From a virus, in IMG/VR virus record IMGVR_UViG_3300010160_000025, positions 88,809 to 152,808 of that record: 64,000 nucleotides of DNA. One strand, given 5' to 3'. Every line of letters starts with the position of its first letter. The first letter of the stretch is position 1. This document shows positions 24,832 through 58,126 of the stretch, in pieces. The position numbers and the translations under genes were made by a program. The notes under the pieces were generated by a model. It was not told the DNA's origin. It saw only the letters and a list, made by a program, of their open reading frames with translations, and did not search any database.

Positions 24832-24835
24832 TAGA

Positions 24836-25066: not shown

Positions 25067-25106
25067 GTTTTTACTCCTTTGGTTGTAAGTACTATTATAT
25101 ATCACT

Positions 25107-25391
25107 TTAATGATTTGTATACTTTAAAAGTGGACACGCAAGCAAAAAGAAACTGGCCTCTTTTGGCTCTTCAAATCCAATTTTAATTTGTATAGTAAAT
25201 TGATTATCAGTAAGCTGTAGGCACTCGCCTAGATAGAATCTGCTGTGCAGATTTTCGTATATCCATTGTTTAACAGATGCTACGATATTATATTTAAGGT
25301 TTAATTGAAGATAATGGAAATGGGGAGGTGGCTCACCAACCTCCCTACAACCTAATACATTAAGTGGATTGATCTTATCTAAAGATAACAT
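25107..25391 (-). CDS. Hypothetical protein, 94 aa
   Basis: The start ATG shares bases with the stop of the VWA gene (TAATG), implying coupled translation. The chain has a PPPHFHYLQL segment and a beta-rich C-terminal half (FTIQIKIGFEEPKEASFFLL). No family is recognised. The His-x-His pair could bind metal but this is weak. Confidence 0.65.
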   Translation of the reverse strand: MLSLDKINPLNVLGCREVGEPPPHFHYLQLNLKYNIVASVKQWIYENLHSRFYLGECLQLTDNQFTIQIKIGFEEPKEASFFLLACPLLKYTNH

Positions 25392-43597: not shown

Positions 43598-46267
43598 TTA
43601 AAACTCAAAGAGTTGATTAAAAGTGTTTTTTTCTTCCGTACTCTTAATGTCCCAACCTAAAACTCCAATTAAGTTTTCTAGTTTGTTGTCAATAATAGTC
43701 TGTTCCATTTCTGCGTCGTCAAACGGTAATTCCATAAACCATTTAGGCAAACGTAATTCGTCTACTGGATATGCAACCGAAGTGAAGCCAATTGGATTTG
43801 GCTTTAGTTTACAAACAATGACTTTTTGTCCGTCTGTAATCTGCATAGAATACTTGTCTCCATTCATACGGCGTAGTGTATTCCAATTGATACTTGCTCG
43901 AACATGTCCGGGCATATTGGCTTTACCTGCTTTTGCTTCTTTAGCCTGATAGTCCGTAATGTTGTTAGCACGTTTAGGACTGCCCTTCTCCCATCCTGGC
44001 CTAGCTTTAAACTCACTGCGGAATCGGGTAATGTGTTCTAAAACTTCATCCTCTGAGCCAGCAGTTAACACACGTTCTAAAATATCACTCAAGAAATTCT
44101 GAATAAATTCAGGGGTATCACTGCGTTTTAAATCTAAACCCATAGCCTTAATCTTACCAGGCTTGCCATCTATATCTGTACGCTTGCCTTCTTTATCAAA
44201 GTAAAGAACAGCATAACGCTTCTTAGTAATGAATAAGCCTTTAATAGCAACAATTTCTCGACCGGCTTTAATAACTTCTCCGCGACTATGCGGACAATGA
44301 AACGCATCTTCCATAAAGCTGGGGAATGTTTTATTAACTTCGTTGCCGACTTGGTCATACAATGCAATAACGTTTTCTTTAGTCCAAGGGATAGCACCGG
44401 AGTCAATGTCTTTCTTTAGCGTTGTATATCCAGAGAAATAACAGGAGTCAGTATCACCGTAGATAATAGCTTTACCACGATAATCAAAATCGCCTGTAAT
44501 AATCTCGTTCACCTTACCAGCCATATGTTTAACAATTTGTCGTCCTGTTAGGGTAGTTGACTGTCCAATACGCTTGTCAAAGAATCTACAACCAGCGTTA
44601 AGGATAGCACCGTACAGACTATTTAGGTTAATCTTCTTAACTAACTGTCTTTTATCCCAATATTCTTCTTCGACTTTGTTTTCTGCTTTGATACAATCTT
44701 TAAGTTTGGCCTGCATTTCTTTACGTTCAGCATACCAACGCTTTAACAGTCCCGGAATAATACCTTCTTTTTCATAGGTAAAGATAGTGCCGTTAGCACT
44801 AATCATCCATGGTTGATTACTGTCAAAGATTAACTTGTAGACTTCGGCGGCAGAGTGTTCGGTGTTATTACCATCTTCCCAATCAATGGTAATAGTTTTA
44901 TCAATACGTTGTTCCATAACATATTGATATTCTAATGATCCAAACATACCTTCCCAACTTGCGGCAAATGACTTTTTCTTAAGTGTCATTTGTTCGTGGA
45001 TAAAGTTATCAGTTTCAGTTTGACGTAACTGTCCAACAATAGTCTCTGGACCCATGTTAAGCGCACGAATGGCTGACGGATAAAGACTGTTAATATCTAA
45101 AGAACCAATCCATTCGTGAATACCTTCTTTGGGATAAGCAACATACGCACCTGCGGCGCTGTTGTCAGCATCTTCGTCACGCTTTTGTCTATTAGGAACT
45201 TGGAATCCTCTACGATGACATTCATTAATAATAGCCTGTTCAGTAACAGCAACAGCACCCATTGTGGTCTGTAGCAATACAGTACACTCGTGTGCTAGTG
45301 TGTTGGCAAGATCAATAAATTTTAGTTTATCATCTAGTTTGTTTAACAGTAGTGTATCTTGTCTGTTATAGATAATAAATTTGTGAAAGTCATTGTTGTA
45401 CAACTGATCAAGGGTACCTTCGTAGACAGTTTTGTTTTCTCCTACTTCCATTTCACCAATAGCATCTAATCGATATGTATGGCGTTCTTCATATGTATAT
45501 TTGCGATATAGTTCAAGACTATCTAAATGTACACGACCGTGAAAGTCATATGTAACAGCCTGCTTCCCATATTTTTCATATTCACGTTTCTTGGGTAACT
45601 GTCCCCATAGACAGAAGCGTTTGGTATCTTCTTTGCTTAATACACGAGTAACACGATTAACAGTATACGGAACGTCATAGCCTTCGCTGTTCCAACCACT
45701 GATAATGTCAGCGTCTTGGATTAAGTCCAAGAATGTTTCTAACATATCACCTTCATTGTCAAACAAATGTGTATCCGGAATATCAGACACTAGTTTAACA
45801 GCATCTTCCATCTTCATGCCTTTAGGAGGCATTGCTAGTGTAATTAACTTCTTCATCCATTTTAGGTAAACAGTAATCGCAGTGATTGGCATGAACGCAT
45901 CTTCTGGAGTGCTGTAGCCACGTTCTGGATCAAAGTCTACCTCAATGTCGAAGAAGCAGATATTTAATTTAGGCGCATCTTGATTTAGATAATTTTCAGA
46001 TAAGTGTACAAAGATTGGATTAATATCACTTTCGTACAATTCTTTATTTGAAGCAATAGAAACTTCTTTCCGGAAGTCTTTAGTGTTCTTGCATACTACC
46101 TTAGTAAGTGGATCACCATAAATGCTAGTAAACTTGCCTCGTTGATCCGGGTAGTAAAATGTGTAGCGTACAGGGTGCTCTTTATAGACCCGTTCGCCTT
46201 TATTGTTTCTTTCGACGACTTTAATAGTGTCGTTCTCTCTGTCAAAGAGAGCATCTACATAACTCAT
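43598..46267 (-). CDS. 43: Family B DNA polymerase (T4 gp43-like)
   Basis: This is the replicative polymerase, with 5'-3' synthesis and 3'-5' proofreading. I start it at ATG 46267 (MSYVDALFD) because TAAGGAG stands five bases upstream; the open frame reaches back to a TTG that has no site. The protein is 889 aa, close to T4 (898). Motifs in order: Exo I FFDIEVDF (residues 105-112), Exo II SGWNSEGYDVPY, Exo III YNRQDTLLL, Pol A SLDINSLYPS, Pol B KINLNSLYGA, Pol C YGDTDSCYF, and TKKRYAV. Two tandem hairpins lie immediately upstream of the ribosome site and may control translation. Confidence 0.95.
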   Translation of the reverse strand: MSYVDALFDRENDTIKVVERNNKGERVYKEHPVRYTFYYPDQRGKFTSIYGDPLTKVVCKNTKDFRKEVSIASNKELYESDINPIFVHLSENYLNQDAPKLNICFFDIEVDFDPERGYSTPEDAFMPITAITVYLKWMKKLITLAMPPKGMKMEDAVKLVSDIPDTHLFDNEGDMLETFLDLIQDADIISGWNSEGYDVPYTVNRVTRVLSKEDTKRFCLWGQLPKKREYEKYGKQAVTYDFHGRVHLDSLELYRKYTYEERHTYRLDAIGEMEVGENKTVYEGTLDQLYNNDFHKFIIYNRQDTLLLNKLDDKLKFIDLANTLAHECTVLLQTTMGAVAVTEQAIINECHRRGFQVPNRQKRDEDADNSAAGAYVAYPKEGIHEWIGSLDINSLYPSAIRALNMGPETIVGQLRQTETDNFIHEQMTLKKKSFAASWEGMFGSLEYQYVMEQRIDKTITIDWEDGNNTEHSAAEVYKLIFDSNQPWMISANGTIFTYEKEGIIPGLLKRWYAERKEMQAKLKDCIKAENKVEEEYWDKRQLVKKINLNSLYGAILNAGCRFFDKRIGQSTTLTGRQIVKHMAGKVNEIITGDFDYRGKAIIYGDTDSCYFSGYTTLKKDIDSGAIPWTKENVIALYDQVGNEVNKTFPSFMEDAFHCPHSRGEVIKAGREIVAIKGLFITKKRYAVLYFDKEGKRTDIDGKPGKIKAMGLDLKRSDTPEFIQNFLSDILERVLTAGSEDEVLEHITRFRSEFKARPGWEKGSPKRANNITDYQAKEAKAGKANMPGHVRASINWNTLRRMNGDKYSMQITDGQKVIVCKLKPNPIGFTSVAYPVDELRLPKWFMELPFDDAEMEQTIIDNKLENLIGVLGWDIKSTEEKNTFNQLFEF

Positions 46268-46278
46268 ATTTCTCCTTA

Positions 46279-46325
46279 TGTCATTTAGGGCTGACAAATA
46301 CCAATGCAGTCATTTATGGCTGACT
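46279..46325 (-). promoter_or_regulatory. Tandem stem-loops before the DNA polymerase start (possible translational operator)
   Basis: On the - strand there are two 18-base hairpins, 46325-46308 and 46296-46279, each with a 5-bp stem and an 8-nt loop. The stems are AGTCA/TGACT and TGTCA/TGACA; the outer pair differs (A-U against U-A) yet still pairs. The loops are GCCATAAA and GCCCTAAA. The TAAGGAG ribosome site follows the second stem immediately. In T4, gp43 represses its own translation by binding a hairpin with a 5-bp stem and 8-nt loop beside the ribosome site. Loop bases differ from T4's. Confidence 0.6.
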
Positions 46326-46945: not shown

Positions 46946-47260
46946 TTATCCAATGTTTGGATCAATGCCTCTTGAACGGACGCCACCTTTTTTACGTTGC
47001 GCGGCCAGTTCTTCTAGACCATGTCTAATCTGTTCAACGTTCATTGCTAGTTCTGAAAAGTTTTTAGAAATCGTTTCCCATTCTAATGGACTAGCGTGTT
47101 CTGCTCTTTTAGCAAGATCCTTTAACTGACCTGCCGCACGTAGCATACGATATTGTAGCTTGCCTGGATTAGCGCCTTGATGACTATGTACTAAGGGATT
47201 CATTGGCTCACTAGGATCAAAGTCAATAGGTGCTTCTGTTAATAGTTCGTTTATTTTCAT
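46946..47260 (-). CDS. Putative packaged protein with targeting peptide, 104 aa
   Basis: Begins MKINELLTEAPID: L-T-E at residues 7-9 fits the (I/L)-x-E cleavage site of T4 gp21 protease. The rest is helical with MNPLVHSHQGANPGKLQYRM and NFSELAMNVEQIRHGLEELA. It overlaps the next CTS-type gene by 4 bases, and ends shortly before the dsbA promoter. The call as an internal head protein is an inference from its N-terminus. Confidence 0.6.
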   Translation of the reverse strand: MKINELLTEAPIDFDPSEPMNPLVHSHQGANPGKLQYRMLRAAGQLKDLAKRAEHASPLEWETISKNFSELAMNVEQIRHGLEELAAQRKKGGVRSRGIDPNIG

Positions 47261-47640
47261 ACGCCGTATTTGTTTCTTTTTGGTTTAGCTACTGGACTTG
47301 TTTTATGTGTACCAGGAAGTTCTTCACTACGTTTACCAGTCCAGTTTTCTGGAACACCTCCGCCTACAGCCTTAGCGGCAGCTTTGACCATATCCATTTC
47401 TTCTTTAGTATACGGTGATAGTAAAGGATCACCACCAATCCAGTTATCTGCTTCCATCTTGGTAGGATAATCAGGTGCGCCTGCAAGAGCAATACCCATG
47501 CGCCAACCTAAGTAGGCACTTCCTGTACTTTGATTCATACTAGGAAATGTCATAACATTTCTTATCGCGGCTTTATGTGTAGGATCAATCTTCTTTGTCC
47601 CACCGTGGCCTTGTTCAATAATAAATTCTTTTGCTCTCAT
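47257..47640 (-). CDS. Putative packaged protein with targeting peptide, 127 aa
   Basis: Begins MRAKEFIIE, very close to the T4 internal-protein leader MKTYQEFIAE, with I-I-E as the expected cleavage site. The body has HKAAIRNVMTFPSMNQSTGS, AYLGWRMGIALAGAP, YTKEEMDMVKAAAKAVGGGV and a basic end (KTSPVAKPKRNK). Nothing catalytic. A GATAAATA late box lies only 5 bases before the ATG and I see no ribosome site, so the mRNA could be leaderless. Confidence 0.65.
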   Translation of the reverse strand: MRAKEFIIEQGHGGTKKIDPTHKAAIRNVMTFPSMNQSTGSAYLGWRMGIALAGAPDYPTKMEADNWIGGDPLLSPYTKEEMDMVKAAAKAVGGGVPENWTGKRSEELPGTHKTSPVAKPKRNKYGV

Positions 47641-47645
47641 AGTAA

Positions 47646-47653
47646 TATTTATC
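47646..47653 (-). promoter_or_regulatory. Late-type promoter box GATAAATA
   Basis: On the - strand GATAAATATTACTATG: the box overlaps the desaturase stop codon and lies five bases before the next ATG. Confidence 0.5.
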
Positions 47654-48347
47654 TAAGTTTAGCTAGTCTAAGCGTTTTAAATATGGTAAACCACATCCAA
47701 CCCATGTCAAACTCAAACCAACTTCTGCTTAGTTTAGGATTAGCTGGATTAAGGTGATGATTATTATGTAGCTCTTCACCGCCGATAATAATACCCCAAG
47801 GGCTAATATTGCGGCTTTGATCCTTTGTTTCGCCGTTACGATACCCAACCCAATGTCCGACTCCATTGATAACACCAGCGGCCCAGAATGGTATCCATAT
47901 CATTTGTACACCCCACACTATAAGGCCTAACGGCCCAAATAACAATAAGTTTATAACTAACATTAGGAGAATGCCCAGGCGACTGTGTTGGGTGTACACG
48001 TTGCGTTCAATCCAATCATCGGGTGTGCCTACACCGTATTGTTGGATCATTTCAGCGTCTTTACTTGCAGAATGATACAATCCTGCACCTTTAAATAATA
48101 CATGCCATATACCATATACATGCGGACTATGAGGATCACCGGGTTCGTCACTAAATCTGTGATGTTTTCGATGTATAGCTACCCACTGCTTAGTAACCAT
48201 TCCGGTTGTTAGCCATAACCAGAAGCGCATAAAGTGTTCTAGTACAGGATTAAAAACAAATCCCTTATGCGCTTGCCCTCTATGTAGGAACAGGGTAACG
48301 CAGACAATTGTGATATGTGTTACTATTAGCGTATATAATATAATCAT
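47649..48347 (-). CDS. Fatty acid desaturase (acyl-CoA/lipid type)
   Basis: 232 residues with the three His boxes of membrane desaturases: HRGQAH, HRKHH and EELHNNHH, and several membrane helices (IILYTLIVTHITIVCVTLFL; LGILLMLVINLLLFGPLGLI). These enzymes add a double bond to fatty acyl chains using a di-iron centre. The sequence looks complete, about as short as bacterial delta-9 type enzymes allow. Within a late virion-gene block it could alter host membranes before lysis. A CTAAATA box and an odd GC-rich segment precede it. Confidence 0.9.
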   Translation of the reverse strand: MIILYTLIVTHITIVCVTLFLHRGQAHKGFVFNPVLEHFMRFWLWLTTGMVTKQWVAIHRKHHRFSDEPGDPHSPHVYGIWHVLFKGAGLYHSASKDAEMIQQYGVGTPDDWIERNVYTQHSRLGILLMLVINLLLFGPLGLIVWGVQMIWIPFWAAGVINGVGHWVGYRNGETKDQSRNISPWGIIIGGEELHNNHHLNPANPKLSRSWFEFDMGWMWFTIFKTLRLAKLR

Positions 48348-48351
48348 CTAA

Positions 48352-48358
48352 TATTTAG
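48352..48358 (-). promoter_or_regulatory. Late-like box CTAAATA before the desaturase
   Basis: CTAAATATTAG lies four bases before the desaturase ATG on the - strand. It resembles the GATAAATA boxes but lacks the first two bases. No ribosome site is visible. Confidence 0.35.
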
Positions 48359-48360
48359 CC

Positions 48361-48470
48361 GTAAAAAAATGCTCACTTTCAGGATTCCCGGTAGCGAATC
48401 GGGCCGTCCTGCGCCAGCAGCCGGCGCACACTTGAGTCAGTAACGAGTACTGGTCCTAAGGTAGTGTGTT
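48361..48470 (-). ncRNA. GC-rich structured segment, candidate RNA or leader
   Basis: This gap between the HAD gene and the desaturase is much richer in G and C than its surroundings and has no gene. Read on the - strand it folds in series: a stem CACACT/AGTGTG enclosing CAGTA-CTCGT-TACTG, then TGCGCC/GGCGCA with a 7-nt loop, then CCCG/CGGG, and a seven-T run (48362-48369 area). On the + strand it contains GGTCCTAAGGTAG and GCCAGCAGCCG, short strings found in 23S and 16S rRNA. No tRNA cloverleaf was found. It could be a small RNA or a control leader of the desaturase. The strand is assumed. Confidence 0.4.
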
Positions 48471-48472
48471 CT

Positions 48473-49234
48473 TTAATGTTTCTTTGCTCGCCCTGCTTTC
48501 ATATTTGCTAACCAGTGTGCTAGTTGACCTTTACGGCCACCTTGTTTAGCAGTTTTACGTAAACTGCTTACTGATGCTTTAGTGTTAATGCCGTGACGTT
48601 TAGCATCACCTTTATCTTCTGGGTGCTTTCCATCAGCAAAATTTTCATCGGTACGTTGATATTCGCTTGCTTTGCCCTCTAAGCTAACATGCCAGGCATA
48701 GAACTTGGTCTTTGGATATTCTTTCTTAAGTTCTACAAATGATTCTAAGTTAGGAACAGCATCATCATACATTATGGCTTTAGTATAAATGTCCTTGTCT
48801 AACAAGTTACGTATAATAATTTTTTTCTTTTCTTCTGTTTGAATCTTGCCAGTCATATTGCCTGCACGATAAACATGAACTTTTGCCATGTCTACACCAT
48901 ACTTGCGGAATGTATCTAAGAATAGCTCTTTATCATCAAAGTCAGCACGAGCAGTTACCATTACTACTTTGTTACCAGTAGCGATGTCTTGCTTGAGTTG
49001 ATTCATCATTGGAATGATCGGTTTACTTTTGTGGAAAAAGTCATGTGCGTTACGAAAGTTCTCAAAATCAAACTGTTCTCCCGGTTGTAGTTTATAGTGT
49101 GTAAACTCATGACTGTTAAGTTCTTTAGTTACCTGTCCGTCTTTGACCACGTGGACTTTAGTTTGTGTATGAACCAGCGTGTCATCTATATCAAAGATAA
49201 CTAGTTTTTTTGGCTGGAACTCTTTTGCTCGCAT
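48473..49234 (-). CDS. HAD-superfamily phosphatase with basic C-terminal domain
   Basis: Starts at ATG 49234 (MRAKEFQPKK), which overlaps the preceding stop as TAATG. It has the HAD nucleophile motif LVIFDIDDTLVHT (about residues 11-23), VVMVTARADF (second motif) and AIMYDDAVPNL (third). The first six residues equal the packaged-protein leader MRAKEF, but the cleavage site is missing. The C-terminal 60 residues are basic (DKGDAKRHGINTKASVSSLR, then GGRKGQLAHWLANMKAG), a phage-type domain. HAD enzymes of this type act on nucleotides or polynucleotide 3' phosphates; substrate unknown. Confidence 0.82.
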   Translation of the reverse strand: MRAKEFQPKKLVIFDIDDTLVHTQTKVHVVKDGQVTKELNSHEFTHYKLQPGEQFDFENFRNAHDFFHKSKPIIPMMNQLKQDIATGNKVVMVTARADFDDKELFLDTFRKYGVDMAKVHVYRAGNMTGKIQTEEKKKIIIRNLLDKDIYTKAIMYDDAVPNLESFVELKKEYPKTKFYAWHVSLEGKASEYQRTDENFADGKHPEDKGDAKRHGINTKASVSSLRKTAKQGGRKGQLAHWLANMKAGRAKKH

Positions 49235-49956
49235 TAACAGTTCCAACGACGACGTGCCGCACAGATTGCCTTATCTGGAGTCTTTGAACAATCTATATGA
49301 TGCATACGTTTTTGTCCAGCGGATCTAGAACAATAACTTGATCGACGCTTGGCACTTTTGCTACCTCTTTTTAGTTTACTAGGTTTAGTCGTTACGGCAG
49401 TTTTTAGTTTGCTACCTGGATTTTCTCTACGATAGGCATTGACAGCCTTTTGACTCATGCCCGAAGTCTTATCGTGTTTGTTAACTTTCTGCCAATCTTC
49501 ATTAACTGGTTGTGTAACAGCAAACACATATAGCTCATCGTCTGTGAGTGTTTCTAAATCTTCCCAGACAGCATCTTCGTTAACACCATTACGTAAAGCT
49601 AGGTTGGATATAATCGATTCAATAAGATCAAACTCTTCTTCTAGCTCTGTGCTTTCGTTCTTTACACAGTTACGTACTGAACCGTTCTTACCTTTCTTTG
49701 TACCTGCGGCATGATATCCGGACCAACATTTAGTAAAGCCGTTGCTGTCTTTGGCACCTTTTTTAATTTCACTAAGATTGCCATGGGATTCACACATGTT
49801 GCAATCAGGGCAGACCATTTCCATTTCAACACTTTCGTTGTGTTTCTTTCTGCCGGCACAGTGAGCACGTTGACTAAAGCCTTTAGGATGCGAGCAGTTA
49901 ATACTCTTTTTGTATTTCTGACTCCATGATTCGATTATAAATTCACTTGCTCTCAT
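49234..49956 (-). CDS. Cys-rich protein with targeting peptide and basic C-terminal domain
   Basis: I start at MRASEFIIES (49956), which gives I-I-E at residues 7-9. Cys-rich parts follow: INCSHPKGFSQRAHCAGRKK and MVCPDCNMCESHG (possible zinc ribbon), TKCWSGYHAAG. The end (MSQKAVNAYRRENPGSKLKT, then many Lys/Arg and Cys, ending ARRRWNC) looks like the DUF6321-type DNA-binding domain of related phages. The combined picture is a DNA-binding protein that may be packaged. It is coupled to the HAD gene by TAATG. Confidence 0.65.
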   Translation of the reverse strand: MRASEFIIESWSQKYKKSINCSHPKGFSQRAHCAGRKKHNESVEMEMVCPDCNMCESHGNLSEIKKGAKDSNGFTKCWSGYHAAGTKKGKNGSVRNCVKNESTELEEEFDLIESIISNLALRNGVNEDAVWEDLETLTDDELYVFAVTQPVNEDWQKVNKHDKTSGMSQKAVNAYRRENPGSKLKTAVTTKPSKLKRGSKSAKRRSSYCSRSAGQKRMHHIDCSKTPDKAICAARRRWNC

Positions 49957-50089
49957 AATCTTGTAAATCTCCAATAGTCAAAGGAATACCAGCTAGGCCG
50001 CACCCAAACAATGCTAGGCCATTATACAGGGCTGTAAGGGTTGCGAGGACGGTCGGTGCCATCATCTTCTGGATAGACTGGATATTCAT
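49943..50089 (-). CDS. Possible small hydrophobic protein, 48 aa
   Basis: In the gap after the Dps gene, a frame from ATG 50089 reads MNIQSIQKMMAPTVLATLTA followed by LYNGLALFGCGLAGIPLTIG and ends inside the next gene's start. GAGAG precedes the ATG. Its hydrophobic core could span a membrane. A second frame in another phase (ATG 50099, 25 aa, MRENEYPVYPEDDG) overlaps the Dps stop as ATGA and is an equal candidate; probably only one is real. Confidence 0.35.
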   Translation of the reverse strand: MNIQSIQKMMAPTVLATLTALYNGLALFGCGLAGIPLTIGDLQDYESK

Positions 50090-50095
50090 TTTCTC

Positions 50096-50539
50096 TCATT
50101 TTAATGTAGAACGTAGGAACCAGCTGTGCTTGCGGTGTGCATCTTGACGATCAGCTAAGAAGTTAGATAGACCAAACTCGCCTGCGGCATCAGCCATTTT
50201 ATAAACCATTGCCATTAACTGTGCTAGTTTATCACTGTCAGCTAACAGTTCAGCAGTCATTGATCGTGGATCAATAACTTGATTCTCATCTTCCACTGTG
50301 GTTAACATACTAAATCTAGATAAGCTAGCAGGAGTGTATGCACCGCTTTTACGAATATTTTCTGCAAATGCATCAATACTTCCGTAAACTTCGTCATAGA
50401 TTGTTTCAAACAACAAATGAAACTCGTAAAAGTCTGGACCTTCAGTGTTCCAATGAAAGTTTTGTGCTTTTAATGCAAATGCATATTCACTGGCAAATGC
50501 TATTTTTAATGCGTTGATTAACTGTTCCATATTAGCCAC
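50096..50539 (-). CDS. dps: Dps-like ferritin
   Basis: 147 residues with the Dps signature: a four-helix bundle opening with LKIAFASEYAFALKAQNFHW, with ferroxidase His in NFHWN, then the Asp/Glu positions in FETIYDEVYGSIDAFAENIR, and the C-terminal helix EFGLSNFLADRQDAHRKHSW. Dps binds iron at subunit interfaces and protects DNA from oxidants. A phage copy in a late block could protect packaged DNA or detoxify the host. It overlaps the 77-aa gene by 8 bases. No targeting peptide is seen. Confidence 0.9.
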   Translation of the reverse strand: MANMEQLINALKIAFASEYAFALKAQNFHWNTEGPDFYEFHLLFETIYDEVYGSIDAFAENIRKSGAYTPASLSRFSMLTTVEDENQVIDPRSMTAELLADSDKLAQLMAMVYKMADAAGEFGLSNFLADRQDAHRKHSWFLRSTLK

Positions 50540-50765
50540 ATATCTGTATTACTGCATAGATGCCTGTGACTAACATGGCCTTAAGAGCCATATCGTCTGC
50601 TTCTGCATCTAATCTATCTGTTCTAACCAAATCTTCTAATAACTCTTTTGCTTCACTTGGATCAATCTGTCCAGATTCTAATGCCTGTCCAATCTGATAT
50701 GCTGTATTAGCACGTTCAGCCGCCCAGCCTTTACCTGAGTTAATACATTGCATAAGTTCGTTCAT
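50532..50765 (-). CDS. Helical protein, 77 aa
   Basis: Four short helices: MNELMQCINSGKGWAAERAN, YQIGQALESGQIDPSEAKEL, LEDLVRTDRLDAEADDMAL, ending in a hydrophobic AMLVTGIYAVIQICG that could touch a membrane. Function unknown. It overlaps the lipoprotein gene upstream by one base. Confidence 0.72.
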   Translation of the reverse strand: MNELMQCINSGKGWAAERANTAYQIGQALESGQIDPSEAKELLEDLVRTDRLDAEADDMALKAMLVTGIYAVIQICG

Positions 50766-51154
50766 TAGAATCTCCCTAGTACTACACTAGCCGCACGTTC
50801 GGCCTGTGTAGTCATTAACTTTTTCTTAATCTCGCAATAGGTATCGCTACCTTGCTTTTCACTTGTACTACGTTTGTAAAAATCATCTACAGTTTCTTGC
50901 ATTGGTTTAATCAAACGCAATACATCGTTTTGTCTTTCGCCTTTACTAGTACTATATAGTTCAAACCATTCTAGGTTATCTTTAATCTGTTTAACTTGCG
51001 GTGCATGTGGTTGTTTGCAATCTAACTGTGCTACACTTTGACGCACATCAATAATCTTAGCTGATTGATTAACGTCTTGAAAACTAGGAATCATTTCCTT
51101 AATACTAGCACATCCAGTTAAGCACAATATTAGTGCAACAGCTAAGTATCTCAT
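50765..51154 (-). CDS. Lipoprotein, 129 aa
   Basis: A classic lipobox ends the signal peptide: MRYLAVALILCLTGCASIKE, cleaved before Cys15. The mature part is helical and charged (VNQSAKIIDVRQSVAQLDCK, NLEWFELYSTSKGERQNDVL, then DTYCEIKKKLMTTQAERAAS). It probably sits in the outer membrane, like a spanin-type or superinfection-exclusion lipoprotein, but a second spanin pair is present at 62817-63562, so its role is open. It overlaps both neighbours by one base. Confidence 0.75.
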   Translation of the reverse strand: MRYLAVALILCLTGCASIKEMIPSFQDVNQSAKIIDVRQSVAQLDCKQPHAPQVKQIKDNLEWFELYSTSKGERQNDVLRLIKPMQETVDDFYKRSTSEKQGSDTYCEIKKKLMTTQAERAASVVLGRF

Positions 51155-52008
51155 TATTCAAGACCTTTTTTAGCTTCTGTTAAATTAAAATAATCTTTAA
51201 AACTTAGACCTTCCGCCACACCTTGCTCAACACTTTCTGTTTTAGGAGCCCACCATTTGCCGACGCCAAACTCTTTATCAGCTCTGCCCTTTTGAAATTT
51301 AAAAGAATCACCGCTAGTAGTATATTTGGTCTTTGCCCACTTACCACTTTTTGTTTTCTTAACACCTAAACTTGCGGCAAGTTCTTCTTGACCTGGTTGT
51401 ACATTATAAAAGAACATGCCAGTCATTACAGGTCTGTCTTGCGGAGCTTGATAACGTTGACCACGTGGCTCATTAGGATATTCATCATATCCGCCGCCTT
51501 GAGGATTGCCATCACTGTCATACCCTTTTGGCCCATTAGTTCTACCCATACCACTTACGCTACTTGCATAATCTCTATCGTATGCTGTTGGACTACCAGG
51601 TTTGCGGAATGCACCAGCTTCATCAACTTGTTCTTCTGTGCTTTCGCCCATGCTGTCGTTAAACATGTCTGGTTGTAGAATACCTTTGCCAACATTGTGA
51701 TAAGCAGTCATGAACGCATTAAACTTATCCATCATGTCACGTAGGCTAGCTTCGTCTGCGTTAATCTTAATCTTATTGACCTGTGCCATTACTTCGTCTT
51801 GGATAGTATCAGCAGCCAATAAGAACGCATTAGCATCACCGCCTACTGAACCTTCTTCAAAACTTGTAATAACAGATTCTTGTGTAGGTGTATATGGATT
51901 ACTGCTTTCTCGAATAATAGATACAAATTTTTTCATATCATTAGCACCTTGAACAGGCTTCTTCGTAGTTGCCCCGTCAAAGGCTTGTAATATCTTCTTC
52001 ATATCCAT
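51154..52008 (-). CDS. Putative processed head or core protein, 284 aa
   Basis: The chain has two internal elements that look like the targeting leader: MKKFVSIIRE near residue 25 and GLSFKDYFNLTE near the C-terminus; both end in an (I/L)-x-E site. Between them are a helical part (DTIQDEVMAQVNKIKINADE), a Gly/Tyr/Pro-rich stretch (PKGYDSDGNPQGGGYDEYPN) and a Lys-rich domain (SLGVKKTKSGKWAKTKYTT). Several cleavage-type sites in one chain fit a head-core protein that is cut by the prohead protease. Function is inferred. Confidence 0.6.
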   Translation of the reverse strand: MDMKKILQAFDGATTKKPVQGANDMKKFVSIIRESSNPYTPTQESVITSFEEGSVGGDANAFLLAADTIQDEVMAQVNKIKINADEASLRDMMDKFNAFMTAYHNVGKGILQPDMFNDSMGESTEEQVDEAGAFRKPGSPTAYDRDYASSVSGMGRTNGPKGYDSDGNPQGGGYDEYPNEPRGQRYQAPQDRPVMTGMFFYNVQPGQEELAASLGVKKTKSGKWAKTKYTTSGDSFKFQKGRADKEFGVGKWWAPKTESVEQGVAEGLSFKDYFNLTEAKKGLE

Positions 52009-52020
52009 TTTGTCTATTCC

Positions 52021-53061
52021 TTATTTGGCAGCGTTTTTCCACATAGCGGCAGCGGCAATCTTCTTACCTTTCTCACCACCACCTGCGGCTTTAGCTACCT
52101 TGTCAAAGCTCTTGCCTGGTTTGCCAACGTCACCGCCTGCCTTAGCTTTTTTAACTAATGCTGACTTAGCACCTTTACTCATGCCTGCGCTTGGCTTTGC
52201 CGCTTCGTATGCCATTGTACTACCACATTCTTTTAGACCGTGTACTGGACACTTCTCACCTTTAGCAGAGTGATTGCATTTGCCATCAGCTTCTTTTAAA
52301 CGTCCGTCTTTTTCAGCTGACTTTAACATTGCCGCACGATCTGCATAGCTACCACGCTTGACATCTTTAGCGGCTTTCTTCTCACCTGGAGTAGGATTCT
52401 TAACGTGCTTTAGCGGATCAAACTTTGCTTCAGCAACGCCTTTGCCACTGTAGTTTTTACCAGCAGTATGTTTGATACCGGTCTTGGTCTTTTCAATAGT
52501 ACCACCAGTGCTAGACTTTTTCTTTTCGCCTGGCTTCATGCCTGCTGTACCCTGTGCATTTTTCTTTGCATCATCGACAGTTGGGAAACCTTCTTTGAAT
52601 GGCTTGCCTGCTTTTGCCGCAGCCTTGGCACGTGATCCCCAAACTTCATCTTTGTTTGTTTCAACTTTGCCATCGCCATCATAATCTTTCTTGGCTTTCT
52701 TAACAGCACTTTCTAATAGTGCCTGTAGTTTTTGTTCGTAGTTCATAGATTCTTCCATTTCCATTTTTTCGTCATCGGCTTCTTCTGCGGCACGAGCGGC
52801 AGTTTCCATATCTCCAGTAATGTCATCAACACTTGACGCAACTGCGCCTTGTCCAAACTTTACTTGATATTCCATATAGTGGTAGATACTGTCTAAGTAA
52901 TCTGCCGCTTTAGTAATCTTTGCTTGTACCCAACCTTCTAACTGTTGGTTATTCTGAATCATTTGAAACAGTTTCATAGAGTGCTTGGCAGCTCTATATA
53001 GGTCAGCACGGGCCATTCCGCCTTCGTCATCTGGTCCTTGCATTTGTACTTGTGGTTGCAT
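52021..53061 (-). CDS. Protein with EF-hand-like loop and Cys/His cluster, 346 aa
   Basis: After a helical head (LYRAAKHSMKLFQMIQNNQQ) and an acidic linker it has LQALLESAVKKAKKDYDGDG KVE..., an EF-hand-like calcium loop (Asp-x-Asp-Gly-Asp-Gly). The middle is rich in Ala/Lys with repeated motifs. Later CNHSAKGEKCPVHGLKEC holds three Cys and two His, a likely zinc site. L-L-E in the linker region is a possible protease site. It is preceded by a GATAAATA late box with a normal leader and GGAG. Similar Lys-rich DGDGK proteins occur in T4-like aquatic phages. The function is unknown, probably virion-associated. Confidence 0.7.
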   Translation of the reverse strand: MQPQVQMQGPDDEGGMARADLYRAAKHSMKLFQMIQNNQQLEGWVQAKITKAADYLDSIYHYMEYQVKFGQGAVASSVDDITGDMETAARAAEEADDEKMEMEESMNYEQKLQALLESAVKKAKKDYDGDGKVETNKDEVWGSRAKAAAKAGKPFKEGFPTVDDAKKNAQGTAGMKPGEKKKSSTGGTIEKTKTGIKHTAGKNYSGKGVAEAKFDPLKHVKNPTPGEKKAAKDVKRGSYADRAAMLKSAEKDGRLKEADGKCNHSAKGEKCPVHGLKECGSTMAYEAAKPSAGMSKGAKSALVKKAKAGGDVGKPGKSFDKVAKAAGGGEKGKKIAAAAMWKNAAK

Positions 53062-53084
53062 GAGGTAACTCCGTTGTCTTTATG

Positions 53085-53092
53085 TATTTATC
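53085..53092 (-). promoter_or_regulatory. Late-type promoter box GATAAATA
   Basis: On the - strand GATAAATACATAAAG, in the 3' end of the upstream gene, followed by a 24-base leader with GGAG and the ATG of the 346-aa gene. Confidence 0.5.
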
Positions 53093-53420
53093 GTTTTAAG
53101 CTGCCACCAGTAAGTAAGTTAGTACCCTTAACATCTAATGCATTTTTTGTTGTACCGTCTTTATTCTTATTAGTTTTACCTGTTTTGTTAGGGTATACTG
53201 GCCCAACTCCTACGTTAGCCGCACTAGTAGCACCTGCACTAGCAGATTCAGCCATTTCATAGTCTTTATTCTTGTGTTTAGCATCACCTTGCTTTGCGGC
53301 TTTCTTTTTGTCTTTATGTGCGCCAGCGCCAGTATTGATAGCATTTTTAGCTACAAAGTTACGTGGCTTGGGTGTTTCGGCTTTTTTAGTTTTTGCTTCT
53401 AATAGTTCGCGCATTTTCAT
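53088..53420 (-). CDS. Basic protein with targeting peptide, 110 aa
   Basis: Start at ATG 53420 (MKMRELLEAK), with GAGGAAAATATT before it. L-L-E is the expected cleavage site. The body is Lys/Ala-rich (AKNAINTGAGAHKDKKKAAK) and ends NLLTGGSLKR. It is largely disordered and basic, as are the T4 internal head proteins that enter with DNA. Inference only. Confidence 0.65.
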   Translation of the reverse strand: MKMRELLEAKTKKAETPKPRNFVAKNAINTGAGAHKDKKKAAKQGDAKHKNKDYEMAESASAGATSAANVGVGPVYPNKTGKTNKNKDGTTKNALDVKGTNLLTGGSLKR

Positions 53421-53454
53421 AATATTTTCCTCATGCAATATTTAATATATTTTT

Positions 53455-53862
53455 CTAATCTTTATTTGTATTAGCACGTTGTAAATCTATTCTATAACTT
53501 TTAATACCTTTTTCTTTTAACCATTTAGCAACAGCTTTTTCTGCTTCTGCCGGACTTTGATATTCAGTACCTAGATTGATTTCTTTTTCAATCGTCTTGC
53601 CATTTACTGTCATAGTAATATGAGCAACAATATCGGGAAGTTTATATTCTACATCGTTAGCATGAGCCGGTGTTCCTAACATATTTGCCGCTGCCATTGC
53701 GGCACCTGCAACTTTAGTTTTCCAACCTTCGTCTAGGTCTTCTGTTGTATGGGGCGCTTCTGCTTTCTTTGGCTTGATTGGTTCAATAAACTTCTTAGGT
53801 TTCTTGTTATATTTTTTAGCACGAATGCCTTTTTTATGTTCAAACAGTTCACGTAAAGTCAT
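53455..53862 (-). CDS. Protein with targeting peptide, 135 aa
   Basis: Begins MTLRELFEHKKGIRAKKYNK: L-F-E at residues 6-8 is the expected cleavage site and a basic stretch follows. The second half is a compact domain (DIVAHITMTVNGKTIEKEIN, AEKAVAKWLKEKGIKSYRID). It overlaps the next gene by 4 bases. The fold is alpha/beta; function unknown. Confidence 0.65.
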   Translation of the reverse strand: MTLRELFEHKKGIRAKKYNKKPKKFIEPIKPKKAEAPHTTEDLDEGWKTKVAGAAMAAANMLGTPAHANDVEYKLPDIVAHITMTVNGKTIEKEINLGTEYQSPAEAEKAVAKWLKEKGIKSYRIDLQRANTNKD

Positions 53863-54146
53863 ACGGGAGGTTCTCCGGTAAGATAAGGACGACTAAACCA
53901 TAACTTAAACCATTCTTTAGTTCCAGGTTGTATGTTATGCTTCTTCATTAGTTCGCCCTTGCTATCTCCAGTAACACTTATGTTACTACCTTGATTGGCA
54001 CGATACTCGTGTAGTCTAGCTTCTGCACCTAGTCCGCCCATACCTGATAATATTTTTAGTTCATGTACAGGATCATTGGGCGCAAGATAACAATCATCAG
54101 GACTATCCTGATTTAAATCTTGACTTGTTATCTTATATTGTTTCAT
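53859..54146 (-). CDS. Hypothetical protein with C-terminal EWF motif, 95 aa
   Basis: It has no targeting leader. Near the C-terminus is MKKHNIQPGTKEWFKLWFSR; a similar GTNEWFRHML lies at the end of the Pol-beta-like protein at 56323. The repeated G-T-x-E-W-F element may bind a common partner. It overlaps both neighbours by 4 bases. Function unknown. Confidence 0.62.
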   Translation of the reverse strand: MKQYKITSQDLNQDSPDDCYLAPNDPVHELKILSGMGGLGAEARLHEYRANQGSNISVTGDSKGELMKKHNIQPGTKEWFKLWFSRPYLTGEPPV

Positions 54147-55174
54147 TTTACTAGTCTAAATGCTTTGAGATTTTTACGGGGTGTACCTTTGTTTACATCC
54201 ACAGTTGAATTCTGTTTAGTAATGATACCTACACCTGCGGCATCTTCGTGCAATCCAAAGCCTTCACGTATATCGTTCATTAATTCACTAACACTTGCTT
54301 CAGTATTGGGTAGATTACCTTTATAAGCATCATCAATATGAGGATCACCGTCTTCTACTGTACCTAGTGCATAATGAAACATGTTGTTACCTGCATTTTC
54401 TATGATAACAAAATAAAACTGATCGTCAGTTTCTTGACCTTTAGTTGAGAACATAAACGCATCATCGCCTTTACGTTGACCTTTCCAACCCATAGCCCTC
54501 ATTGCGCTGTTAACTTTGTTTGCAACTTCTGGCCACTCTAATGCAGTTCCTAAGGTGGCTTCTGTTACGCCTTCCACAGGAGCCGCAACTTTTTTCTTTG
54601 CTACTTTCTTTACAGGTGCATTAGAGTATGGTAGCAGGTATTCTGCTACTAGATCAAAGAACGGTTTACCAGCTACAGGAGTATCAGCATCTACACCAGC
54701 GGCAGTGGCAAACGCTTCACGATCACCTTTAGAAACTGCATCACGTAATGCTGTAGCTGAACTTAAACGTGGTGTTGGTTTTTGTTTAATAGTTTTAAAA
54801 TTATAGAAACCGTGTGCGCCTTCTTTACCATTATACTGTACAATGGTTTTAGTAACCCAATCTTCATCAGTTAGACATAGTAGTGTAACATCACCGTGTT
54901 TTTCATAGACCAGACTGGCTAGCGTTAGCCATGATGTTTCTGCAATAATATGTCCTTCAACTTCTGGCCATATAGCAGTCATTGCTTCTACCTTAATGCC
55001 GTAAGGCAATGGATCTTTTGGACCTACTGTGCTTTCGTTAGTACCTACATACCAAACAGGACTCTTAGCGGCAAGTTCCCATGCGGCTCTATGTCCCTTG
55101 TGCGGAGGATTAAAGCGACCAAATATAATGGCAACTTCTTGTCCTAGCCCTTCAAATATCTGTCTTAGTTTCAT
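54143..55174 (-). CDS. Cytidylyltransferase-like nucleotidyltransferase with targeting peptide
   Basis: The leader MKLRQIFE has I-F-E as a cleavage site. The catalytic domain follows: IIFGRFNPPHKGHRAAW with the HxGH-type motif HKGH (residues 25-28), WYVGTNESTVGPKDP, and LSSATALRDAV (the second, ISSTxxR-like motif). This is the nucleotidylyltransferase fold used by NadD/NadM, CTP:phosphate and similar enzymes. The C-terminal 130 residues are a separate domain (MRAMGWKGQRKGDDAFMFST). Neighbours are another nucleotidyltransferase and a KxDG ligase-like protein, so the three may act together on nucleic acid or NAD. Confidence 0.8.
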   Translation of the reverse strand: MKLRQIFEGLGQEVAIIFGRFNPPHKGHRAAWELAAKSPVWYVGTNESTVGPKDPLPYGIKVEAMTAIWPEVEGHIIAETSWLTLASLVYEKHGDVTLLCLTDEDWVTKTIVQYNGKEGAHGFYNFKTIKQKPTPRLSSATALRDAVSKGDREAFATAAGVDADTPVAGKPFFDLVAEYLLPYSNAPVKKVAKKKVAAPVEGVTEATLGTALEWPEVANKVNSAMRAMGWKGQRKGDDAFMFSTKGQETDDQFYFVIIENAGNNMFHYALGTVEDGDPHIDDAYKGNLPNTEASVSELMNDIREGFGLHEDAAGVGIITKQNSTVDVNKGTPRKNLKAFRLVK

Positions 55175-55183
55175 AATAAGTCC

Positions 55184-56326
55184 TTAGGTCGGCGTCCAAC
55201 GCTTGCGAGGTACAAGTTTAACGTGACCTAGCTGTTTATTTTGATCCGCATATCGAACACGACCTTCGCCATTTGTGTCCCATATCTCACCCTGTTCGCC
55301 TTCGATTTGATCAATGATGTCGTCTTTCATTGCTTGTATTCTTTTTACCAGTGTAAAGATAGTTGCTAGTGCAGTTGGGTTTGCCGCAACTAGATCATTA
55401 ATCTTTTGTTGTTTGCCTGGACTAGTCTTTGATACAGCTAACCAATCTGTAAAATGTTTTGGACTTAGACTGTCTAACTGTTTTGCTTTGGCAGTTTGAT
55501 TTACATAAGTGTAGATAATATTTTTTAGGTCGCTTAGTCCCGGAAGCCCTTGTAGGAATCCATCCATTTGACCACCGTGCGCCTGTGCAAACTGCTCAAT
55601 GGCATCGACTGCTGTAGTATCAATCTTAACAGGCTTGCTGTTGTATATTGGGCCAAGAACAATTAACTGTGGATTACTATTGAACTGACTGAAGTCACTG
55701 ATAGGCTTTTGACTAGCATCTGGCATACCAAACTCTGGAAAAAACGCATGTCCCACTACCATTACTTGTGCATTAGCAATACGCTTACCTAATCCGCTAT
55801 TGGATCTCACATGATAACATGTTTGACTTTTATTATTGGGACAAAAGTTATATATGCCTTCTTTATCTGCTGGAGGTTGTTGTAAGAACAAACCATCTGC
55901 ATATACAAAGCCCACGAAGTCTCGTGGAGTAGCTTTGTCAAACAGGGGATACAGACTAGCGAACTCGCTGGCAAATTTATCTCTTGCTTCTTTCTCTTCG
56001 GGAGTTTTTGGACTTCCCGACTTATTGGCAATAAAATCTTGTACTGCTTCTGGACTATCTGTTACAGCACCTTTGCTCCAACCATTATGTCCTGCAAGTA
56101 TTAAAGGACCGTTAGCCTCAGCACGGCCCCAATATATTTGTGGATTACCGTCCCACTTCATACGAATACTATTAGCTCCTTCTTGACTAGCAAAATCTTT
56201 GATATGACTTAGTGCTTCAAGTGTGCCTTTAGTACCGTGAAAGAAAACTAGATCTTCTAGGTGGTTAAATGCTCGACCTAACTGTTTAGGTGCTTCTGCT
56301 TCTTTAAACAGTTGTCTTAATCTCAT
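55184..56326 (-). CDS. KxDG ligase-like nucleotidyltransferase (DUF6267 type)
   Basis: 380 residues. After MRLRQLFKEAEAPKQ it has HLEDLVFFHGTKGTLEALSH and then NSIRMKWDGNPQIYWGRAEA: K57-x-D-G is the motif I of covalent nucleotidyltransferases such as DNA and RNA ligases. DFVGFVYADGLFL and a late HVKLVPRKRW could be motifs IV and V. The leader F-K-E is less clean than in its neighbours. Ligase activity is inferred; capping-type activity is another option. Confidence 0.7.
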   Translation of the reverse strand: MRLRQLFKEAEAPKQLGRAFNHLEDLVFFHGTKGTLEALSHIKDFASQEGANSIRMKWDGNPQIYWGRAEANGPLILAGHNGWSKGAVTDSPEAVQDFIANKSGSPKTPEEKEARDKFASEFASLYPLFDKATPRDFVGFVYADGLFLQQPPADKEGIYNFCPNNKSQTCYHVRSNSGLGKRIANAQVMVVGHAFFPEFGMPDASQKPISDFSQFNSNPQLIVLGPIYNSKPVKIDTTAVDAIEQFAQAHGGQMDGFLQGLPGLSDLKNIIYTYVNQTAKAKQLDSLSPKHFTDWLAVSKTSPGKQQKINDLVAANPTALATIFTLVKRIQAMKDDIIDQIEGEQGEIWDTNGEGRVRYADQNKQLGHVKLVPRKRWTPT

Positions 56327-57084
56327 AACTGTACCTTATCCAACATGTGGCGAAACCATTCATTAGTTCCAATACGATAACTTTCTTGACGGACTGGTAC
56401 TTCTTTCCAGTTGGCATCTTCTTTGGCTTTTGCTAGTAATGCATCTGCTTCTTGTTTTGGTAATGCGGCAAGAATACTTTCTACGCTACCTAAATCTTTA
56501 GCACTACCGTTAGGTCCAAATAGGTGTTTAGCTACATCATCTAAGTTGTCAGCAACTAGGTCGCCCTTCTTACCTTCTGGTGTACGACTAAACAATCCCT
56601 GCCATGCTGACCACATGTAGTTTTTCTGTTTGGCAAGGATAGCCATCATTAGTTGTTTGTTGACACCCTTGTACGGACTGTTATCGGGAATAGTATGTGT
56701 GTGAAACTTAGATACTTTCTCAGCATTAGCTGATACCATAACATCTACTTGATGAAATTCTCCGCCAACTGGAACATTTACGTGAACGTTAATACCGCTT
56801 TGTGCTGTTTCTAAACCTTTACTGCTGATATAATCGTTAAGTGCTTTACGACCTGCTTTAGCATCTTTGACTTTAAAGTAGTTTAATACAGCCTGTTCGT
56901 CAACAATAACATCCATATCGCCACTAGTCTTACCTGGTTTAGGAGTTGCGGCAGAGCCAACGGGGATAGCAGTAATACCTGTGCCAGCTAGTGCTCCGTT
57001 AATTGTTTTGAGTATTGCAGGAACATCTTTGTGATCAAATGGAGTTGCATTAGCAAATACATTTCCGCCTTCTAATAAAATCAT
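56323..57084 (-). CDS. Pol-beta-type nucleotidyltransferase, 253 aa
   Basis: The start MILLEGGNVF gives L-L-E at residues 3-5. The catalytic face is PVGSAATPKPGKTSGDMDVI: G-S, then Asp56 and Asp58, with a third acid in FHQVDVMVS, the metal triad of the DNA polymerase beta superfamily. The C-terminal part ends in ESYRIGTNEWFRHMLDK. Members add nucleotides to RNA, DNA, proteins or antibiotics. Overlaps with both neighbours (4 bases) place it in one operon with the other two nucleotidyl-transfer-type genes. Confidence 0.75.
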   Translation of the reverse strand: MILLEGGNVFANATPFDHKDVPAILKTINGALAGTGITAIPVGSAATPKPGKTSGDMDVIVDEQAVLNYFKVKDAKAGRKALNDYISSKGLETAQSGINVHVNVPVGGEFHQVDVMVSANAEKVSKFHTHTIPDNSPYKGVNKQLMMAILAKQKNYMWSAWQGLFSRTPEGKKGDLVADNLDDVAKHLFGPNGSAKDLGSVESILAALPKQEADALLAKAKEDANWKEVPVRQESYRIGTNEWFRHMLDKVQL

Positions 57085-57425
57085 TGGTCGTCTCCATCAT
57101 AGTCGCCCTGCTCAATGCGATCCTTTTCTTGACCAAAAATCTTACGGGCTAGTTCGTCACGGTCAATGTTAGTAAACACTGACTTATGGTTATCGGGAAT
57201 ATTAAATTTTTTGCAGTATGCTTCTGCGGCATGATCAACTACAGGACGAAAAACACCATCGTGACAACGATTACCTGCTTTAATGTGTGCTTTAACCTTG
57301 CTAATCATAGGAAAGAACACTTTACGATAGAAATTGTGATCGTTATGCATGAAGAAATGTAGATCGTCAGGCAGATCCATTTCTTCTAGATTTAATACTG
57401 AGTTTACAACTTCATCCATTCTCAT
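57081..57425 (-). CDS. Conserved protein of the late block, 114 aa
   Basis: Features LPDDLHFFMHNDHNFYRKVF, KAHIKAGNRCHDGVF and VVDHAAEAYCKKFN: many His, Asp and Cys, so a metal-binding fold is possible. It begins MRMDEVVNSVLNLEE and is preceded by CATAAATA, a late-type box, and an AAGG ribosome site. Function unknown. Confidence 0.72.
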   Translation of the reverse strand: MRMDEVVNSVLNLEEMDLPDDLHFFMHNDHNFYRKVFFPMISKVKAHIKAGNRCHDGVFRPVVDHAAEAYCKKFNIPDNHKSVFTNIDRDELARKIFGQEKDRIEQGDYDGDDQ

Positions 57426-57448: not shown

Positions 57449-57456
57449 TATTTATG
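57449..57456 (-). promoter_or_regulatory. Late-type promoter box CATAAATA
   Basis: On the - strand CATAAATACTC, 24 bases before the ATG of the 114-aa gene, which begins the late block of putative packaged proteins. Confidence 0.45.
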
Positions 57457-57472: not shown

Positions 57473-58126
57473 TTAAATTTCCGTTGTAGTGACTAACTGC
57501 TCTACTTTACGTATTTTATCAGCTAAAAAGATGTGACAAAGGCTTAAAGTCTTTTCATCTGCTACGTAAAAGTGCCCACCGTACTTGTATTTGTTGTTAG
57601 TAGTCTTAATCTTAGGCAGTTTAACGGCCCATTCTTTAAAATTATCAGCAGAATCCCATAAGCCAGTAATAGTTACTTTATACTTATGAGTGTACTCTCC
57701 ACGAATAATAGCTTTGGGATTTGACAATAAGAAGTCACGAACTTCGTCAGTTTCAGGAACGGCAATTTCTTCTACATCAATATTAACAATATTAGTAATT
57801 TTTGAGATAAAATCTAAATCATTAGAGTACAAACCTAATGTACTATTTTCAACCCTAAGTGTAAAATCACTCAGCGACTCTAATTGATCTAATAGCAATA
57901 GACCAACAAACACATCTGTTGATGTTGCTTGTTGTCTGCTTCGCCACCCGTTGGTTATATTAGTCGATGATACTCGATTATTGCTAAATCGATCAGCTAG
58001 AACTTCGATCTGTTGTCTAGTGTTTGGAAGATTTTTACCTCTAAACAGCGTAGACAACGGAGTACGAACTGCTACCTTATAAACAAACCTGTTAAAGAAT
58101 AGTTTGGTAGTTTTCTTCTGATACAT
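57473..58126 (-). CDS. Hypothetical protein, 217 aa
   Basis: Overlaps the ClpA-like gene's end by 35 bases. A basic N-terminus (KKTTKLFFNRFVYKVAVRTP) is followed by a region with helices and strands (STDVFVGLLLLDQLESLSDF, IRGEYTHKYKVTITGLWDSA). No recognised motif. Being next to the ClpA-like gene, it could be an adaptor for that unfoldase; speculative. Confidence 0.7.
   Translation of the reverse strand: MYQKKTTKLFFNRFVYKVAVRTPLSTLFRGKNLPNTRQQIEVLADRFSNNRVSSTNITNGWRSRQQATSTDVFVGLLLLDQLESLSDFTLRVENSTLGLYSNDLDFISKITNIVNIDVEEIAVPETDEVRDFLLSNPKAIIRGEYTHKYKVTITGLWDSADNFKEWAVKLPKIKTTNNKYKYGGHFYVADEKTLSLCHIFLADKIRKVEQLVTTTEI

Follow-up and report, generated by a model that had tools for sequence, protein, structure and literature searches.

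Probable T4-type capsid-targeting leaders on a cargo-rich gene block of a freshwater T4-like phage

Results

Leaders in a minus-strand gene block

The subject of this analysis is a minus-strand block of genes, several of whose products share a short N-terminal leader, in a 64,000-nucleotide stretch of DNA (the window; bases 88809-152808 of the 152,808-base virus record IMGVR_UViG_3300010160_000025) from a freshwater T4-like virus of bacteria. The block has a DNA polymerase gene (43598-46297) on one side and a ClpA/B-type gene (58092-60344) on the other, and its features are collected in Table 1. A first-pass annotation had listed seven leaders ending in (I/L)-x-E, and read them as T4-type capsid-targeting sequences (CTSs) cut by gp21 protease. 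All seven are encoded on the minus strand where it placed them, with an enrichment above chance, and its two partial matches, i.e. MRLRQLFKE (with F-K-E) and MRAKEF of the HAD protein (with no Glu), are borne out; the list is accurate but overlooked MKKFVSIIRE of the 284-amino-acid (aa) protein. As set out below, the shared leaders are very likely T4-type CTSs; targeting operates as in the T4 CTS system and probably is that system, a claim that covers mechanism only.

Table 1. Features of the leader block (window positions; a slash marks the predicted cut)
Feature	Position	Strand	Remark
104-aa protein	46946..47260	-	leader MKINELLTE/A (47234-47260); module also found within longer proteins in relatives
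127-aa protein	47257..47640	-	leader MRAKEFIIE/Q (47614-47640)
ATAAATA late-promoter-like site	47646-47652	-	upstream of 127-aa gene, only 6 bp from its start
HAD phosphatase	48473..49234	-	degenerate leader MRAKEF (49217-49234), E missing; C-terminal ENFADGK module
240-aa Cys-rich three-module protein	49234..49956	-	leader MRASEFIIE/S (49930-49956), initiated at an ATG within the listed open reading frame; C-terminal DUF6321
Internal PVNE/DW site, 240-aa protein	49498..49509	-	following module standalone with leader in relatives L065, L014
Internal NLSE/ site, 240-aa protein	49768..49779	-	before IKKG
284-aa protein	51154..52008	-	conserved MKKFVSIIRE/S at residues 25-34 (51907-51936); LxE/VxE sites close to C terminus
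346-aa Lys/Ala-rich protein	52021..53061	-	internal GVAE/A site; N-terminal leader absent
ATAAATA late-promoter-like site	53085-53091	-	upstream of 346-aa gene
110-aa Lys-rich protein	53088..53420	-	leader MKMRELLE/A (53397-53420)
135-aa protein	53455..53862	-	leader MTLRELFE/H (53839-53862); mature part begins Lys-rich
343-aa cytidylyltransferase-like protein	54143..55174	-	leader MKLRQIFE/G (55151-55174)
Internal FGLHE/D site, 343-aa protein	54245-54259	-	before C-terminal module
Internal EGVTE/A site, 343-aa protein	54560-54574	-	before WPEV module
380-aa DUF6267 protein	55184..56326	-	leader MRLRQLFKE/A (56300-56326), F-K-E rather than I/L
253-aa Pol X-like nucleotidyltransferase	56323..57084	-	short leader MILLE/G (57070-57084)
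114-aa protein	57081..57425	-	first gene after promoter; lacks a clear leader here
ATAAATA late-promoter-like site	57449-57455	-	upstream of block's first gene

When a leader is defined as [ILVMF]-x-E with the Glu at residue 8-10, 7 of the 20 block genes encode one, compared with 5 of the 130 genes elsewhere in the 152.8-kb genome (Fisher P=1.4e-4); when residues 2-16 are shuffled, 1.5 matches result on average (P=2e-4). Two of the five matches outside the block are in gp22 (MLDALKQLFE) and in a 392-aa protein encoded outside the window (genome 71612-72790; leader MKLYEVLLE/D). A profile built from the leaders of relatives places gp22, the 392-aa protein and an acidic protein encoded next to gp21, none of which was in the training set, among its ten highest-ranked proteins genome-wide; the block proteins also rank high, which is partly by construction. 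An own-genome comparison detects no similarity among the proteins of the block, on which ground gene duplication is rejected as the origin of the shared leaders.

Prohead protease, head genes and late-promoter motifs

The prohead protease, which the first-pass annotation had proposed looking for, is encoded at genome positions 63826-64455 (Peptidase_S77, gp21-type; Pfam E 3e-26). Its gene adjoins those for gp20 (Portal_T4, E 2e-109), a gp22-like scaffold, assigned by position and PHROG and similar to head-scaffold families, and gp23 (Gp23, E 2.5e-98). The gp23 protein has KYLSE/SATAGATSAGNV ahead of its conserved mature part, the cut position being assigned by analogy with T4, and the 110-aa leader protein has an internal YEMAE/SASAGATSAANV that resembles this context.

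In T4, gp21 cleaves after L/I-x-E, and the first ten residues of IPIII are enough for packaging; residues 4 and 7 of the CTS serve targeting and residues 8 and 10 cutting, and an Asp at position 10 blocks cutting while leaving targeting intact (PMC9026906). Asp forms of this type occur on HAD orthologues in two related loci (MRASDFIKD in L052 and MRASDFVKD in L054), other HAD relatives having the cleavable leaders MRASDFINE, MKIIDLFE and MKITDLLE.

The heptamer ATAAATA lies within the T4 late promoter TATAAATA and also within a motif reported for phage CBB (PMC5259590). It is less common in the genome than permutations of its letters, with 28 copies, 22 of which (79%) are correctly oriented and no more than 60 bp ahead of a gene start (actual range 6-54 bp); for the other permutations only 2-15% are so placed. 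Copies are also found upstream of the portal gene and the gene for the 392-aa leader protein, and the motif suggests that the block would be transcribed late. ATAAATA also precedes several non-structural genes of the left arm.

Conservation of the leaders in relatives

The first-pass annotation had named lack of conservation in related phages as a ground for giving up its reading; put to this test, the reading stands. Among 80 related loci, the leader is retained in 47/47 cytidylyltransferase-like and 74/77 DUF6267 (ligase-like) orthologues, and a MILxE-type leader in 32/56 Pol X-like orthologues, with conservation extending to orthologues at about 30-50% identity. The leader sequence varies freely even on one domain (MRLRQLFE, MRAFEFLKE, MRYQEIIE, MRFNEFRMIKE and others) around a nearly invariant Glu, written with both GAA and GAG codons and directly followed by variable residues. 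Leaders are interchangeable between cargo domains; the orthologues of the 127-aa protein retain leaders of the forms MRAKEFIVE, MRAKEFIKE, MRAKDFITE, MRAHEFITE and MKVREIIAE, and the Methylophilales phage Melnitz has MKKFSEIIE/A and MLTLINFSKYITE/D. Four Pol X-like orthologues begin with a Met right at GGxVF, i.e. at the expected cut point.

Virion proteomics of relatives

The best support comes from published virion mass spectrometry of relatives. Four cyanophage cytidylyltransferase-type proteins detected in virions carry a leader, i.e. S-SM1 GC190 (annotated citidylyltransferase; MKKFSAFLNE/A; PMC3037559), S-SZBM1_140 (MRFRQFIIE/A; PMC9146016), S-SCSM1_91 (MKSFLQFLKE/A; PMC9602691) and S-CREM2 ORF154 (MKNFSSFLTE/A; PMC10665884). 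Three leaderless homologues are, by contrast, missing from the virion data: CBB_73 (MVYGRFNPVHLGH), absent from the CBB virion list, PA5oct EST35_0307, which has no electrospray tandem mass spectrometry (ESI-MS/MS) tag of the kind present on its neighbours, and the S-PM2 GC190 protein, undetected in S-PM2 virions (PMC3037559). The leaderless DUF6267 protein S-SZBM1_141 is likewise not in its virion list, next to the detected _140.

In S-CREM2, a 10-residue T4 pattern, made strict after the N-termini had been seen but with positions taken from published T4 work, is found in 5/52 virion-detected compared with 1/167 undetected proteins (P=0.003; PMC10665884 Table 3), the carriers being ORF6 (MKDFDSFLEE), ORF13 (MKDLHSFLTE), ORF14 (MKRFDAFLTE), ORF136 (MQTFSMFFSE) and ORF154; a loose pattern already used on CBB gives P=0.024 in S-CREM2. 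Of the other virion-detected S-CREM2 proteins, ORF137 ends in the DUF6321 module of the window (SMNE/DWQKANRKDKTDGMSQ), and ORF156 has a weak NTP_transf_2 match. A position-specific scoring matrix of the relatives' leaders gave no significant ranking of the S-CREM2 virion proteins (top 10: 5, P=0.06), because cyanophage leaders are longer than those of the freshwater relatives on which it was trained.

Modules and sites between domains

All open reading frames of the relatives, the block and Melnitz were compared for junctions, i.e. cases where the domain that follows a leader in one protein lies inside another protein, the leader regions being unlike. The exact [ILVMF]xE is at the mapped position in 49 of 150 non-redundant junctions (33%), and the Glu in 74. 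Elsewhere in the range from -8 to +12, each offset has the complete motif in 1-17 junctions (~4% on average), with peaks no more than 4 residues away, as small indels would give. The standalone modules start directly after the Glu of their leader. Thus VEGVTE/ATLGTALEWPEV in the 343-aa protein matches MRASEFIKE/AKLGNVLPWPEV of L022, and in the 240-aa protein NLSE/IKKG matches MRANEFITE/IKKG (L010), and PVNE/DWQKVNK matches MKVNEIISE/DWNKVNK (L065; the L014 form is MRAKEFINE/DW). For the ENFADGK module, the Glu may be part of the module itself, the P3 residue often being non-hydrophobic. The sequences suggest that the cargo proteins are modular and that some would be polyproteins cut between domains. 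The leaderless 346-aa protein, with its internal site, is a candidate prohead-core or cargo protein.

Cyanophage proteins provide some related observations. S-CREM2 ORF12 and ORF14 (L096), S-SM1 GC190 (L104) and S-SCSM1_91 (L101) have in common a post-leader GLxSDGHGxWxDxxGxxVAxTxxGxLxFYD-like segment, a further interchangeable module in otherwise unlike virion proteins; ORF12 has a Cas9 annotation without Pfam support, and an internal FASFMAE/A site. Other cyanophage proteins (L104:9422-10843 and L103:18989-20362) consist of an acidic LxE-rich half, LLSE/D and then a strongly basic Ala/Lys-rich tail, and S-SZBM1_139, detected in the virion, is of this two-part type; by sequence they resemble cleavable precursors of head proteins that bind DNA. 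In S-PM2 (L105:1270-3049), DUF6267 and cytidylyltransferase regions occur in the adjacent, leaderless genes GC71 and GC190, with the C-terminal part of DUF6267 fused ahead of the cytidylyltransferase.

Enzyme-like cargo

The AlphaFold2 (AF2) model of the 253-aa protein (pLDDT 89) has a Pol X-like fold, with a Foldseek match to Pol lambda/beta (E 3e-8, prob 1.00, TM about 0.5), and D56, D58 and D114 are invariant in 27 sequences; judging from the model, it could be another nucleotidyltransferase of Pol beta-type fold. The 380-aa DUF6267 protein has KWDG (57-60), EGRV (354-357) and KLV (370-372), of which K57, D59, G60, E354, G355, V357 and K370 are invariant down to 20% identity, and which read as motifs I (KxDG), IV (EGxV) and V (K) of the covalent nucleotidyltransferase (ligase) superfamily. 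The ligase assignment is by these motifs, the DUF6267 model (AF2 pLDDT 90) having no significant match in the PDB (T4 Rnl1 at E 0.27 only), and profile searches with DUF6267 and the Pol X-like protein against sequences of solved structures gave chance matches only. The HAD protein matches a PHROG annotated as polynucleotide kinase. Together, the phosphatase, Pol X-like and ligase-like proteins suggest a role in repairing nucleic-acid ends as infection begins. No IPI, IPII, IPIII or Alt family was found among the mature parts in Pfam and PHROG scans of the block proteins. The between-domain sites, the Pol X-like fold and the late promoters go beyond the first-pass annotation.

Discussion

A likely route for the leader proteins

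By analogy with T4, we infer packaging, cutting and injection in this phage to proceed as follows. The block would be transcribed late from the ATAAATA promoters, and the leader, with hydrophobic residues spaced much as in the T4 MKTYQEFIAE, would dock each protein onto the prohead core. The gp21-type S77 protease would then cleave after [ILV]-x-E, leaving the mature enzyme or basic protein free inside the head; DNA would be packaged around the freed cargo, part of which would enter the cell with the DNA at infection. With modular cargo and a cut motif at domain boundaries, one gene would probably give several mature head proteins.

Most of the tests that sequence and published data allow support the reading of the leaders as gp21-cut CTSs, but several points weigh against it. 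Some concern the block itself, about half of whose genes are leaderless (among them those for a desaturase, a Dps-like ferritin and a lipoprotein), for which reason the block is called cargo-rich rather than purely cargo; 24/56 of the Pol X-like orthologues are without the MILxE form. The density of internal [ILV]xE is not raised in the block (1.12 per 100 aa, compared with 1.19 elsewhere), so the polyprotein idea is argued only from the placement of the motif at junctions, and cuts at the internal sites are predicted from sequence. Others concern the proteomics, which are from relatives and not from this phage itself. The strict S-CREM2 pattern is post hoc, and for both S-CREM2 and S-SCSM1 the authors considered that the enzymes could be carry-over in CsCl-purified particles (PMC10665884, PMC9602691). 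In CBB, the gp23 of which is 68% identical to that of this phage, the loose leader regex is not enriched among virion proteins (9/52 compared with 55/477, P=0.16), and because of this result the bare motif is not used here as proof.

The same regex matches ~12% of CBB N-termini, so it might be asked whether the leaders reflect chance, [IL]xE being common, or shared ancestry of duplicated genes; the Fisher and shuffling results, the lack of paralogy and the conservation over distant orthologues make this very improbable. It is improbable, if less extremely so, that the leaders are an unrelated N-terminal feature (a membrane-binding amphipathic helix, a degron or a translation-start constraint) of proteins that act in the cell late in infection. 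Such a proposal would accommodate a short motif, with loose matches in other genes, and the leaderless half of the block; it does not account for a near-invariant Glu shortly after a hydrophobic residue, with variable residues next and either Glu codon, nor for the presence in virions of tagged homologues and not of untagged ones.

Two further possibilities accept targeting. That the [ILV]xE sites inside the proteins serve as inert linkers, with the multi-domain proteins remaining whole in the head, deserves serious consideration, at somewhat less than an even chance; it fits the unraised internal density, and about two thirds of the junctions have no full site at the exact position (76/150 have no Glu). 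Inert linkers would not, however, be expected to give the exact motif at 49/150 mapped positions, compared with ~4% at other offsets, nor modules that begin right behind a leader Glu. It is rather unlikely that the leaders target and are cut but that the cargo is structural, building or condensing the head interior rather than being delivered for action in the host. A number of leader proteins (those of 110 and 135 aa) are short and rich in Lys, gp22 has a leader-like N terminus too, the gp23 cut context is present in the 110-aa protein, and IPIII of T4 takes part in head morphogenesis; by contrast, the longer leader proteins resemble enzymes and conserve catalytic residues that would be needless in a scaffold, and T4 ejects both its internal proteins and Alt (PMC9026906).

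Cargo and comparison with known systems

Assuming that the leaders are CTSs, it may be, and is proposed only tentatively, that the head carries cargo polyproteins built from interchangeable modules with prohead-protease sites between them and matured in the capsid, including an end-repair set (PNKP-like phosphatase, Pol X-like polymerase and ligase) whose targets would be either the incoming genome or nucleic acids of the host, ahead of phage gene expression. African swine fever virus has been proposed to carry a Pol X and a ligase-type enzyme in its particle; it is an unrelated virus, and in the present case packaging is a prediction and the ligase assignment is by motifs only.

The system resembles that of T4 (IPI, IPII, IPIII and Alt; gp21) in its short N-terminal propeptide with similarly spaced hydrophobic residues, its L/I-x-E cut motif, an S77 protease gene beside gp22-gp23 and its late-promoter motif. 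It differs in its leaders, mostly of 8-9 residues (the Pol X-like protein has 5), and in its cargo, which is rich in enzymes, has no relation to IPI-III and includes multi-domain proteins with the cut motif where domains meet; an enzyme-rich, modular cargo set with probable cuts between domains is what is new relative to T4. The cyanophage cytidylyltransferase/NMNAT proteins (S-SM1 GC190, S-SZBM1_140, S-SCSM1_91 and S-CREM2 ORF154) share the enzyme family and leader type and are found in purified virions, but their leaders mostly have 10 residues and different modules follow. In the portions available, the cyanophage virion studies make no mention of the leader; in open-access full texts, capsid targeting and cyanophage co-occur only in the T4 review PMC9026906, where the cyanophage mention was found in the reference list. 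The phiKZ/SPN3US ejection proteins, processed by gp175/gp245, are similar in that many head proteins are cut after Glu by a gp21-related prohead protease, with several cuts per protein; by contrast, they belong to phiKZ-type phages and have long propeptides and a virion RNA polymerase as cargo, and their enzymes bear no short leader that is interchangeable.

The leader motif, familiar from a handful of small T4 proteins, may become a testable predictor of what T4-like phages bring into their hosts, and the DUF6321, DUF6267, ENFADGK and CWxGY...NC hypothetical modules are candidate injected proteins. It also offers an explanation for the recurrent cytidylyltransferase/NMNAT-like enzymes of cyanophage virion proteomes, called possible carry-over in two studies. 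If the between-domain cuts are real, the prohead protease yields several head proteins per gene.

Other features of the genome

A DNA-level search against phage records gave no match for part of the block. The fatty-acid-desaturase-like and Dps/ferritin-like proteins within it are leaderless (window 47649-48347 and 50096-50539). On the plus strand, a giant single open reading frame of ~4670 aa (window 16-14028) adjoins tail-type genes. The phage also encodes adjacent GroES-like and GroEL-like genes (genome 10070-12038), as well as the ClpA/B-type gene that flanks the block. In the left arm of the genome there are four genes that are paralogous by own-genome comparison (14726-16279, 17550-19022, 22311-23807 and 24498-26087), which we take to be FAD/tryptophan-halogenase-like; several related small proteins encoded among them are presumably candidates for 2-oxoglutarate (2OG) oxygenases.

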